A stretch of DNA of 33,001 nucleotides from Bacteroidaceae bacterium (GTDB taxonomy: Bacteria; Bacteroidota; Bacteroidia; Bacteroidales; Bacteroidaceae): assembly GCA_017442185.1 (NCBI GenBank), contig JAFSAT010000033.1, forward strand, positions 1-33,001, given 5' to 3'. Below the pieces are notes generated by a model. It did no database searches. It saw only the letters and a program-made list of their open reading frames with translations, and was not told the origin of the DNA. Positions 23,383-26,504 of the stretch are shown piece after piece. Within the stretch, counting starts at the first letter, position 1; each line of letters begins with the position of its first letter. A program made the position numbers and the translations under genes.

Positions 23383-24690
23383 TTACAGCTCACCCAACAT
23401 AAGGAATTTTTTCAAGTCTTGCAGGTTTGGTGACATTGGGATGCTCTGTTTGCTTCCTTGCATAAAGGCTTGTAGTTTGTCGGGAATATCTATGGTGTGT
23501 CCTATTATGTTCTCTATGGTCTCTTTGAACTTTGCAGGGTGAGCTGTCTCTAAGAATACTCCCACTTCATTCTCTCGAAGATTCTCGCACAAGGCGCGAT
23601 AGCCGCAGGCTCCGTGTGGGTCGAGCAGATAATCTTCGTCAATCCATGCCTGTTTCACGCTTTCGGCAATCTGTTCGTTGTTGTATGCAGCGCCGCTGAT
23701 ATCGGCGCACACCGCAGCATGACTGTTTCCATAGAGTGATATTATACGGGCAAAATTGCTCGGGTCGCCCACGTCCATTGCGTTGGCTATGGTGCTCACC
23801 GATGCACGCGGTGAGTATTCTCCTGTTTGCAGATATTTGTAGAAAATATCGTTGGCATTATTGGCTGCTATAAAGCGTTTGACAGGCAGTCCCATGCGTT
23901 TCCCGAAAAGTCCGGCAGCAAGATTGCCGAAATTTCCGCTTGGTACGCTCACTACAATATCTTTTTTCACGCCCATGCGTTTGAGCTGTGCGTATGCGTA
24001 AAAGTAGTAAAAGGCTTGCGGCAGGAATCGTGCAATGTTTATGGAATTTGCACTTGTGAGGTGTAGCATCGAGTTAAGCTCCTCGTCCATGAACGCACCC
24101 TTTACAAGCGCCTGACAGTCGTCGAAGCAACCATCTATTTCGATTGCGGTAATGTTACGGCCTAATGTGGTGAATTGTTTCTCTTGAATTTCACTTACTT
24201 TGCCTTTGGGGTAGAATACATATACATTTATTCCCTCGACGCCGAGAAATCCGTTGGCAACGGCGCTGCCTGTGTCGCCCGATGTGGCGACAAGCACATT
24301 TACCTGTTTGTGGTTCTGTCTCTTTAGGAAGTATCTTAAAAGACGTGCCATGAAGCGGCCGCCCACATCTTTGAACGCAAGTGTAGGGCCATGAAAAAGT
24401 TCCAATGAGTAAATATCCTCTTTGACTTTTACAATCGGAGCATCGAATGAGAGTGTGTCATATACAATATCGCGCAAATCCTCCTCGGGAACATCATCGC
24501 CAAAGAAGGCGTCTGCCACTCTGAATGCGATATCCTTGAAGTCCATCTTCTCGATATTGTCGAAAAAATCCTGTGGCAAAGGGCGAATATCGCATGGCAT
24601 GAACAATCCTTTGTCTGAGGCTAATCCTTTTACAACGGCCTCTTCGAGTGATACATTGGCTGCGCGGTGGTTTGTGCTGTAATATCTCAT
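23383..24690 (-). CDS. thrC: Threonine synthase
   Basis: PLP enzyme of 435 residues converting O-phosphohomoserine to threonine. Marks are MRYYSTNHRAANVSLEEAVV, the PLP-binding K107 in GPTLAFKDVGGRFMARLL, ATSGDTGSAVANGF (phosphate cup), VSVPSGNFGNLAAGL and the fold-type II ending. It lies 82 bases after an apgM-type gene and is controlled by a threonine-rich leader 1.6 kb upstream. Enzyme substrate, neighbour and regulation therefore all agree. Confidence 0.97.
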   Translation of the reverse strand: MRYYSTNHRAANVSLEEAVVKGLASDKGLFMPCDIRPLPQDFFDNIEKMDFKDIAFRVADAFFGDDVPEEDLRDIVYDTLSFDAPIVKVKEDIYSLELFHGPTLAFKDVGGRFMARLLRYFLKRQNHKQVNVLVATSGDTGSAVANGFLGVEGINVYVFYPKGKVSEIQEKQFTTLGRNITAIEIDGCFDDCQALVKGAFMDEELNSMLHLTSANSINIARFLPQAFYYFYAYAQLKRMGVKKDIVVSVPSGNFGNLAAGLFGKRMGLPVKRFIAANNANDIFYKYLQTGEYSPRASVSTIANAMDVGDPSNFARIISLYGNSHAAVCADISGAAYNNEQIAESVKQAWIDEDYLLDPHGACGYRALCENLRENEVGVFLETAHPAKFKETIENIIGHTIDIPDKLQAFMQGSKQSIPMSPNLQDLKKFLMLGEL

Positions 24691-24772: not shown

Positions 24773-25987
24773 TTAAGCCGACTTCATGAATGTGTTGATA
24801 AATTCATCCTCTTTAAGAAGTCCGTAACTGCCTGCGAGTGTCGATTCTTCATCGAACTTTTGCACGCTGTCGGCCTGTATGTCGCGATGCCAGATGAGGA
24901 ACGGAACAGGTTCGGCTGTGTGAGTGCGATGCTCGCAAGGGGTGGGGTGGTCGGGCAGCAGTGCTATTGCCACAGGCTCGTCCCACTCTTTCACAGCCTC
25001 GTAAATTGGGGCAACTACGCGGCTGTCGAGATTTTCAATTGTTTTTATCTTCAGTGGAATGTTACCCTCGTGTCCGGCTTCGTCGCTGGCTTCTATATGC
25101 AGATACACAAAGTCATCCTTTTTCAGAGCTTCGAGCAGTGCTTTTACCTTATTTTCGTAATTTGTGTCATAAAGTCCGGTTGCTCCCTCAACATCAAGAA
25201 CTTTTAGTCCGGCGTAGTGTCCTATTCCCCGTATGAGGTCGACTGCAGATATTACCGAGCCGCTGTGAACTTGCGGAAATTTATCGCCCAATGCCTCCAT
25301 TTGCGGACGGTAGCCGCCACCCCAAGGCCAGATGCTGTTTGCAGGGTCTTTGCCCTCGGCAATACGTTTCAAATTCAACGGATGTTTCTTCAATAGTTCT
25401 TGTGAACGCAGTATAAGGTCGTTGATAAGGCGGGCAGTCTCTTCGGCCTCGGGTACCTCGGCCTTCACCATCAGTGGCCGAAATTCCTCACCCGGAACAT
25501 CGTGCGGAGGTGTGCAGTGCAGGCGTTTGTCGCCCCCTTTAATCACAAGCAGATGGCGATATTGCACTCCTGTGTAAAAGTGTATCTGTTCGTTGCCAAG
25601 ATGTTCTTGAAGATATTTCATCAGCACGTCGGCCTCCTCGGTCGATATATGTCCCGATGAGTGATTTTTTATTTTATCCTCTTCAATGCAGATTATGTTA
25701 CAACGCAGAGCAAGTTCTCCGGGTGCAAGCTCTATGCCGATGCTTGCAGCTTCAAGCGGGCCGCGCCCCTCATACACCTTGGGCAGATTATATCCCAATA
25801 CCGACATGTTTGCAACCTCGCTTCCGGGGTGAAAGCCGTCGGCAACAGTCACAAGGCGTCCTGTGCGTCCCATTGCTGCAAGTTTGTCCATATATGGTGT
25901 GTTTGCCGCTTGAAGAAGTGTCTTTCCTCCCAATGCTTCCACAGGCCAATCGGCCATTCCGTCGCCCAATATTATAATGTGTTTCAT
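24773..25987 (-). CDS. ApgM-family phosphotransferase, probable homoserine kinase (ThrB substitute)
   Basis: A 404-residue alkaline-phosphatase-fold protein usually labelled cofactor-independent phosphoglycerate mutase. Metal and catalytic motifs are intact: IILGDGMADWP, the nucleophile serine S62 in ANMSVLGYN, DFVYLHIEASDEAGHEGN and LLPDHPTPCEHRTHT. Homologues in Bacteroides have been linked experimentally to homoserine phosphorylation. Here the gene sits between a Thr-rich leader peptide and thrC, with no classical thrB in view, so homoserine kinase is the better reading. A mutase role in glycolysis is the alternative. Confidence 0.82.
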   Translation of the reverse strand: MKHIIILGDGMADWPVEALGGKTLLQAANTPYMDKLAAMGRTGRLVTVADGFHPGSEVANMSVLGYNLPKVYEGRGPLEAASIGIELAPGELALRCNIICIEEDKIKNHSSGHISTEEADVLMKYLQEHLGNEQIHFYTGVQYRHLLVIKGGDKRLHCTPPHDVPGEEFRPLMVKAEVPEAEETARLINDLILRSQELLKKHPLNLKRIAEGKDPANSIWPWGGGYRPQMEALGDKFPQVHSGSVISAVDLIRGIGHYAGLKVLDVEGATGLYDTNYENKVKALLEALKKDDFVYLHIEASDEAGHEGNIPLKIKTIENLDSRVVAPIYEAVKEWDEPVAIALLPDHPTPCEHRTHTAEPVPFLIWHRDIQADSVQKFDEESTLAGSYGLLKEDEFINTFMKSA

Positions 25988-26157
25988 AAGTCTTCAAATT
26001 TTTATGATTGATATGTGTCAGTGAATGGTGTTGCTTGGCTTTTGGGAGCCGTGCATCACCGCAGCTGTATTCTTTGATGATATTCGACAAACGGTGAAGC
26101 ATGCTTAGGCTTTGCTTCGCTCTGTTGTCTTTAAAATAAAAAGAAGTGATTTTTTTG

Positions 26158-26209
26158 AAAAAGATGTTTCACGTAGAAACACAACAACTATCCCTAACCC
26201 CGAAGGGTT
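26158..26209 (-). promoter_or_regulatory. Candidate threonine attenuator hairpins
   Basis: Read as minus-strand RNA, AACCC-UUCG-GGGUU (26209-26196) is a UUCG tetraloop hairpin overlapping the last codons and stop of the leader peptide. It is followed by UGUUUC-UACGU-GAAACA (26181-26165) and UCUUUUUC, a weak terminator-like hairpin with a U-run. CACAAC (26212-26207) can instead pair with GUUGUG (26185-26180), which overlaps the second stem. The folding is read by eye and is not an energy calculation. Confidence 0.5.
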
Positions 26210-26259
26210 GTGGTTGTACCTGTACCGGTAGTTATAATATGCAGGGTGTTGTTTATCAT
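26194..26259 (-). CDS. Threonine operon leader peptide (ThrL-like)
   Basis: A 21-residue frame, too short for routine gene calling, starts at 26259 with MINNTLHIITTGTGTTTT and ends with LRG and a TAG stop. Eight of its residues are threonine, four of them consecutive, and three are isoleucine. This composition is the hallmark of the leader peptides that control threonine operons through ribosome stalling (compare E. coli ThrL). It lies about 20 bases after the predicted transcription start and about 207 bases before apgM-thrC. The family is not homologous in sequence, so recognition rests on composition and context. Confidence 0.85.
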   Translation of the reverse strand: MINNTLHIITTGTGTTTTLRG

Positions 26260-26285
26260 CTGCTGTCTTTTGTCTTTGTATGTGG

Positions 26286-26316
26286 CGAAAGTATGAATAA
26301 AATGTTAGAATCCAAA
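26286..26316 (-). promoter_or_regulatory. Promoter of the threonine operon leader
   Basis: TTTG (26316-26313), 19 bases, then TACTTTCG (26293-26286) on the minus strand match the Bacteroidetes consensus with one change in the -7 box. The transcript would start near 26279, about 20 bases before the leader peptide. Confidence 0.75.
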
Positions 26317-26442
26317 ATTTTTCGGATAAAAAATCGACAAATGTCGTGAAAAACTTCAAATTGATGGAAAAATGTATGAAAATATCTTCGTGAAACAATC
26401 TGTTTTGATGCTCCTTGAGGATTTGATTGGAAGAATGTACCT

Positions 26443-26479
26443 AAAAAAGCAGTGCGCAGGAAAAACCTGCGCACTGCTT
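26443..26479 (-). terminator. Strong terminator after the sialidase reading frame
   Basis: AAGCAGTGCGCAGG (26447-26460) and CCTGCGCACTGCTT (26466-26479) are perfect complements around a five-base loop. On the minus strand the stem runs into six T. It ends the glycosidase transcript 32 bases after the stop codon and insulates the threonine operon. Confidence 0.92.
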
Positions 26480-26489
26480 ATGAACATAT

Positions 26490-26504
26490 CCTGCATAGTG
26501 CAGG
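26490..26504. repeat. Short hairpin before the terminator
   Basis: CCTGCA-TAG-TGCAGG is a six-base inverted repeat between the sialidase stop and the main terminator. It may stabilise the 3' end of the mRNA. Confidence 0.5.

Follow-up and report, generated by a model that had tools for sequence, protein, structure and literature searches.

Background

What controls the apgM-thrC operon in a member of the Bacteroidaceae, and what is the short threonine-rich frame that precedes it? Both questions are raised by a stretch of 33,001 nt (contig JAFSAT010000033.1), here called the window, in which the two genes are arranged as follows:

24773..25987, minus strand: apgM, cofactor-independent phosphoglycerate mutase family
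23383..24690, minus strand: thrC, threonine synthase (TIGR00260, 299 bits against a cut-off of 167)

Among the protein-family models, the window ApgM obtains 579 bits on NF003242 (cut-off 426) and also exceeds the cut-off of TIGR02535, 'proposed homoserine kinase' (577 bits against 446.3), and hence scores as high on the latter as on the phosphoglycerate mutase model NF003242. Since it passes TIGR02535, the apgM-thrC operon is plausibly devoted to threonine synthesis throughout, and the position of ApgM between thrA and thrC in relatives would be explained if ApgM were the homoserine kinase. Should the TIGR02535 proposal be right, thrA-apgM-thrC would constitute a complete homoserine-to-threonine operon.

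The thrL attenuator of the E. coli thrABC operon consists of a short Thr- and Ile-rich leader peptide between the promoter and the threonine genes, with a hairpin and a U-tract behind it. An earlier note on the window had suggested that an attenuator of this kind controls apgM-thrC.

Results and discussion

A threonine-rich frame before apgM

The following features of the leader can be read on the minus strand:

26194..26259, minus strand: leader peptide frame MINNTLHIITTGTGTTTTLRG, followed by a stop codon; read directly, and conserved as a frame in relatives
26206..26232, minus strand: control codons 10-18 (TTGTGTTTT), a Thr run beyond that of shuffles
26286..26316, minus strand: promoter-like pair TTTG (26316..26313), 19 nt, TACTTTCG (26293..26286), read directly

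The frame (26259..26194) comprises 21 codons with eight threonines, four of them consecutive (codons 15-18), and three isoleucines, exactly as the earlier note had it, and the apgM start lies 206 nt past its stop. Seven of the threonines fall within nine residues, a density that ATG frames of 10-50 aa reached in none of 5000 dinucleotide shuffles of the 303-nt region.

The promoter-like pair, TTTG-N19-TACTTTCG, is situated 27-57 nt upstream of the frame. TACTTTCG differs at one base from TAnnTTTG, which we take to be the consensus of the Bacteroides promoter box, and of 98 aligned leaders, 96 carry TAnnTT[TC]G no more than 75 nt upstream, as against 41 of 1200 random 75-mers. A sigma-70 scan of positions 25900-26500 returned no promoter. 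We read the pair as a promoter of the Bacteroides type. Between the leader and its upstream neighbour gene, at 26479..26447, there is a strong hairpin resembling a terminator.

Conservation and distribution in relatives

Loci containing apgM were gathered in two sets that share some places, namely 30 from the window's family (151 matching genomes) and the best 80 of 415. At 58 of the loci, apgM is preceded at a distance of at most 260 nt by the end of a long thrA frame. This thrA-first layout has a Thr-rich frame, in most cases with TLRG or TPRG at its end, upstream of thrA; at least one of the 58 (L069, with a short thrA 5' end) has no leader. Of the 18 loci scanned without a neighbouring thrA, 15 have the Thr-rich frame before apgM, the remaining three being L035 (leader before thrA), L104 (cut by the contig end) and L009 (the same place as L081, matched by the model R1 described below). 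The leader is thus located before thrA in thrA-apgM-thrC operons, as in B. fragilis and P. vulgatus, and before apgM where thrA lies elsewhere. Altogether, 69 distinct leaders were found by pattern.

A covariance model, R1, was built from 47 leaders (alignment A1) and matches 74 of 78 sources, that is, the window and 77 of the best-80 loci (L043, L097 and L104 were left out). Three of the four sources missed (L066, L092, L105) end before the region and the fourth is L069 with its short thrA 5' end. Across genomes drawn from the window's family R1 matched 47 of 201, belonging to 10 of 30 genera, and a search of 393 genomes of the order gave matches in four of the window's family plus one outside, bearing in mind that the filters of these large searches lose weak matches. 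The outside match (G218, E 0.004) precedes a gene that, judged by eye, is unrelated, and was taken as a chance match. Within the window's genus R1 matched 7 of 13 genomes, and these seven are also the ones in which apgM was matched at E 1e-60. In 18 of 22 chosen family genomes that were negative for R1, 19 thrA starts were read, among which L233 has a degenerate leader and L245 a strong Thr leader.

The check set beforehand, namely whether a short Thr-rich frame is conserved, was run on these loci: relatives keep the frame as well as the stop hairpin and the one behind it, even as the sequence drifts. The low complexity of the Thr codons would suit an open frame arisen by chance in an A/C-rich intergenic stretch; however, none of the 5000 shuffles yields such a frame, and the distance from the ATG to the stop hairpin keeps a single reading frame in 93 of 93 leaders despite 18 different lengths. 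(Of 98 distinct aligned leaders, the five without ATG in the aligned column, L063, L072, L170, L190 and L195, were excluded from this count.) As far as sequence comparison goes, conservation refutes a chance origin, which we regard as practically negligible. The leader of L039 is in frame up to the hairpin, has no stop there and extends to 43 codons.

Threonine makes up 25.9% of the leader residues in the thrA-type and 29.5% in the apgM-first leaders. It is very unlikely that translation of the leader alters expression by reinitiation or mRNA protection without any sensing of threonine, the Thr codons being mere constraints of RNA structure (ACC in the stop hairpin, C/A-rich codons elsewhere). 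ACCCUUCGGGGU does fix some codons (TLRG, TPRG), and reinitiation at short leaders has been proposed for bacteria including Bacteroidetes (PMC4833913). The Thr codons are, however, spread throughout leaders of up to 35 codons, far from the stop hairpin, with all four Thr codons in use, and the gap from the leader stop to the next gene amounts to 68-243 nt (63 leaders measured), as compared with a Bacteroidetes peak of 11-14 bp in PMC4833913.

Two hairpins at and behind the stop

Two hairpins follow the Thr run of the window:

26196..26209, minus strand: hairpin P2, AACCC-UUCG-GGGUU, over the leader end (window fold; conserved pairs)
26164..26182, minus strand: terminator-like hairpin T1, GUGUUUC-UACGU-GAAACAU (window fold; covariation)
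26158..26162, minus strand: U-tract after T1 (UUUUU), read directly

Both had been noticed previously, one as a UUCG hairpin overlapping the leader stop and the other as a U-tract hairpin behind the leader, and both descriptions hold: P2 (26209..26196) includes the first base of the stop codon, and T1 (26182..26164) is directly followed by CUUUUUC. In the window, P2 has five pairs and -6.3 kcal/mol, with 8 of 200 shuffles equally stable; across 98 distinct rows two of its C-G pairs are invariant and a third is kept in 96. T1 has seven pairs and likewise -6.3 kcal/mol, with none of 200 shuffles equally stable. The 291-nt window region as a whole folds more stably than all 200 of its own shuffles (z -3.1), and the fold of the 127-nt window leader alone is unexceptional (28 of 200 shuffles equally stable).

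Whether T1 acts as a terminator bears on the output of the system. The same sensor could have another output, in which the stalled ribosome and the helix P1 (see below) expose or hide RNA for Rho, for pausing or for downstream translation, T1 being a conserved structural or protein-binding hairpin. T1 is indeed weak, with just two G-C pairs in the window, and was not called when a terminator rule was applied to 25900-26500. At least five T within 10 nt past T1 occur in 31 of 98 leaders, the window among them (8 of 16 apgM-first and 23 of 82 thrA-type), leaving 67 of 98 with no immediate U-tract, and many leaders carry a second hairpin after T1 in its place. Furthermore, the T1 loop CURCGYG (window loop 26171..26175) is nearly invariant while the stem drifts, the exception being L106 with CAAAUAG, and a terminator loop needs no such constancy. 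TTTCTACGYG occurs less often than its reversed control in 7 of 7 genomes, and among the 30 of its 53 sites that were read by eye, 4 are thr leaders and the other 26 are unlike them. Against this other output stand the five U that follow T1 in the window and in its nearest relative L032, and the covariation of the stems: both-sided changes occur at 3 of 6 pairs (alignment A3), and pairing is kept in drifted forms such as GCGUUUC/GAAACGC in L184 and CGUCUC/GAGACG in L186. On balance, we consider an output other than termination unlikely.

The T1 site also resembles a DNA element. TGTTTCTACGTGAAACA equals parS with one base inserted, the parS consensus presumably being TGTTTCACGTGAAACA, and T1 could accordingly be a ParB (parS) or other DNA site instead of an RNA structure. 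This reading of T1 was rejected, and we give it hardly any weight: a parS-like site with at most one mismatch lies elsewhere in 7 of 7 genomes searched (the reversed control gave single matches in 4 of 7), and many leaders are not palindromic at the T1 site (GTGTTTCTACGTGTTACAC).

A covarying helix between the first codons and the post-stop segment

The third structure, P1, joins the beginning of the frame to the RNA behind its stop:

26243..26253, minus strand: P1 5' strand, leader codons 3-6 (fold of 26183-26259; covariation in A3)
26183..26195, minus strand: P1 3' strand, at and directly past the leader stop (window fold; covariation in A3)

Alignment A3 comprises 99 matches, 98 of them distinct, and is fitted to the structure. 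In it, the two strands of P1 are leader columns 18-28 and the post-stop segment, and both-sided changes occur at 10 of 10 pairs, a count to be read with the fitting in mind. For the whole structure A3 holds 105 both-sided-change cells as against 35.4 in shuffles, with none of 500 reaching 105, and sliding the partner by 1-3 columns lowers the paired cells from 85.6% to at most 55.4%. In the sequence-only alignment A1 there are 25 such cells as against 14.3 in shuffles (again reached in none of 500); slides of -1 or -2 do at least as well as the true register on both-sided changes, and paired cells amount to 79.8% in register as against at most 55.9%. RNAalifold applied to A1 proposed P2 alone, and the P1 fold of the window (26183-26259) is on its own no better than shuffles (39 of 200).

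The proposed switch

The frame, its conservation, P2, T1 and the covarying P1 are all features of the aligned sequences, and they argue that the leader is, with good probability, a ribosome-mediated, threonine-responsive transcription attenuator. Translation of the leader, termination at T1, competition between P1 and T1, and the signal with its direction are what we infer from them. A ribosome would begin the 21-codon leader behind RNA polymerase. With ample charged tRNA-Thr it would reach the stop, where its footprint would cover the post-stop segment and block P1, so that T1 and the U-tract could form and transcription would end before apgM-thrC. Under a shortage of charged tRNA-Thr, the ribosome would halt within the Thr run, leaving free both the first codons of the leader behind it and the segment ahead; P1 would close around the stalled ribosome and the polymerase would read through, possibly by P1 zipping into the 5' arm of T1.

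The ribosome positions were modelled by masked folding of 97 leaders (L039 was dropped), with the RNA stopped at the T1 arm. With the ribosome on the Thr codons P1 forms at 0.48 in apgM-first and 0.52 in thrA-type leaders, as compared with 0.05 and 0.04 at the stop. P1 is likelier on the Thr codons in 15 of 15 apgM-first and 82 of 82 thrA-type leaders, which is partly so by construction: the low P1 at the stop follows from the mask, whereas it is the sequence itself that places the post-stop strand within the footprint. P1 forms without any ribosome too, so absent translation would read as starvation.

The classical attenuator design uses the RNA ahead of the stalled ribosome. In folding up to the T1 arm, in 98 leaders and also in a run on 47, pairing of the arm with P2, the post-stop segment and the remainder of the leader came to a mean of 0.02, and thus no antiterminator ahead of the stalled ribosome was found. 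A second candidate, an antiterminator in the 5' UTR (AGAAAC with GUUUCU), reached p 0.1 or less in 19 of 36 thrA-type and in 1 of 11 apgM-first leaders, with p 0.92 in the window; given this weakness in the apgM-first leaders and the window, it is not claimed for the window.

Pairing of the T1 arm with the UTR and the first codons was 0.69 in 98 leaders, as compared with 0.59 when the UTR and first codons were shuffled and 0.65 when they were swapped between leaders. No excess was seen in the 16 apgM-first leaders (0.57 observed, 0.56 shuffled, 0.62 swapped), and the window value did not rise above shuffles (0.62 observed, 0.86 shuffled, 0.59 swapped). In a partner-swap duplex test on 69 leaders, own pairs were slightly better than swapped ones (14 of 10000 permutations did as well); the 14 apgM-first leaders by themselves gave no own-pair advantage (3874 of 10000).

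Moving the ribosome from the Thr codons to the stop in the masked folding lowers the pairing of the T1 arm with the 5' end from 0.56 to 0.33 in the apgM-first leaders (11 of 15 fall) and takes it from 0.62 to 0.60 in the thrA-type (47 of 82 fall); the window shows no fall, with 0.53-0.71 on the Thr codons and 0.58 at the stop. In equilibrium folding with T1 complete, the T1 index of the apgM-first leaders (n=11) rises from 0.71 on the Thr codons to 1.00 at the stop, as expected, and that of the thrA-type (n=34, two of 47 rows being left out) is unmoved at 0.37 and 0.35.

The covarying partner of the post-stop segment is the start of the leader frame itself, and for the window no competing antiterminator is established. 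The earlier reading as an attenuator seems right in kind, the Thr frame and the hairpins being conserved, and its classical layout of pause, antiterminator and terminator is only partly seen. We tentatively consider a variant, which may well prove wrong, in which the 5' end of the leader itself supplies the antiterminator: its first codons, joined in Bacteroides by the 5' UTR, would base-pair with both the post-stop segment and T1's 5' arm, enclosing a ribosome held up at Thr codons (and, with thrA, Met codons), and the leader codons would have been retuned from Thr and Met to Thr and Ile when thrA left the operon.

Leader composition and operon content

Non-start Met is present in 46 of 49 distinct peptides before thrA-apgM-thrC (13.7% of residues) and in 0 of 14 before apgM-thrC, 12 of which contain Ile. 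Thr-rich leaders of the thrA-type without Met exist too (L041, L045, L057, L101). Two further apgM-first leaders were read: L186 has no non-start Met, and L184 has none if the nearer ATG is the start, the model placing the start at an upstream ATG. This association of Met and Ile with the operon is compatible with each leader sensing the products that its own operon serves.

In the window's genus, thrA and apgM lie on different contigs in 7 of 7 genomes with both. In the window's own genome the 5' end of thrA (G000:C19) is short, and no Thr-rich frame precedes it. A script located the thrA start in 11 of the 13 genomes of the genus, the window's own included, and in none of these 11 does a frame upstream of thrA have more than 3 Thr in 9 residues. 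These genomes amount to a natural experiment, in which thrA lies apart, the leader stands with the threonine-specific genes and its peptide is without Met. A corrected ApgM tree needs four changes of operon label, two of which are forced by well-supported branches. The link between Met and operon was assessed on a tree that was discarded for impossible branch lengths; it gave three independent contrasts, a mean of 2.6 in the expected direction and a median sign-test p of 0.25, and is not significant because the independent events are too few.

The attenuator is best read, from these comparisons, as an ancestral feature of the thr operon in Bacteroides and its near relatives. The assignment of the leader to apgM-thrC in the earlier note holds for the window's genus, where it is found, and ancestrally the leader would belong to thrA-apgM-thrC. 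If this is true, ribosome-mediated amino-acid attenuation would operate at the entry of the aspartate pathway in common gut Bacteroidaceae, given that B. fragilis and P. vulgatus carry the leader.

Relation to known systems

The leader resembles E. coli thrL in its Thr- and Ile-rich peptide, its placement between the promoter and a thr gene, its hairpin with U-tract and its presumed logic. It differs in that a long covarying helix joins the first codons to the post-stop segment and a tetraloop hairpin covers the stop, and in that the genes are thrA-apgM-thrC or apgM-thrC. At gathering score, Rfam yielded tRNA only and no Thr_leader in the window, and up to E 5 it yielded five weak chance matches in 25980-26400, none of them Thr_leader.

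The abstract of Vitreschak et al. 2004 (FEMS Microbiol Lett 234:357) reportedly covers Bacteroidetes/Chlorobi besides Proteobacteria, and the study is said to predict control of thrA by Thr, Ile and Met in Pasteurellales. The Bacteroides thr leader may be among its candidate attenuators, and priority for this leader is therefore uncertain. In a full-text literature search, the matches listed included no paper on a Bacteroides threonine leader and no description of its short peptide. Within the same family, short frames reminiscent of leader peptides occur in 5' UTRs of B. thetaiotaomicron, for example BT_4401, according to PMC7366714, a paper whose main text is without the word 'threonine'. 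For the same phylum and the same proposed mechanism, PMC9723704 reports clues to leader-peptide attenuation upstream of amino-acid operons in Flavobacterium psychrophilum, its main text also being without 'threonine'.

Further leaders and elements

In addition, several other elements were noticed. The window's own genome (G000:C12, L247:1185-1238, plus strand) also has a His-rich leader, MKVTLLHHHRHLHSIFL, whose start lies 172 nt upstream of hisG (TIGR00070). Behind it comes a GAAGCCTGC...GCAGGCTTC hairpin that looks strong and has a T-run, and attenuation by leader peptides may thus extend to other amino acids here. The contig JAGBBX010000011.1 of one MAG contains the apgM locus with leader twice (L043 and L044), in opposite orientation and about 160 kb apart.

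The Thr-rich leader of L245, MLSNSITYSSFLGASTIYISRGCTSLGSTYTITTTTTP, stands in G009, a genome unmatched by R1, before a second ThrA homologue (45% identical), and its stop TAA lies within an ACCCC-GTAA-GGGGT hairpin, the same design of P2 over the stop. In L054, L055, L089, L109 and similar thrA loci a second hairpin, GCTTACGGACGTAAGC, together with stem-changed variants of it, abuts T1. By eye, an CCCCGTTTGTTNNGGGG-like hairpin occurs close before thrA in some leaderless genera (L237, L241, L232, L233) and is perhaps another thr control element. At L122 (G101) and L124 (G144) the 5' region of the solitary thrA genes is longer; by eye, it contains an AACAGC...GCTGTT hairpin and a T-run but no Thr-rich frame.
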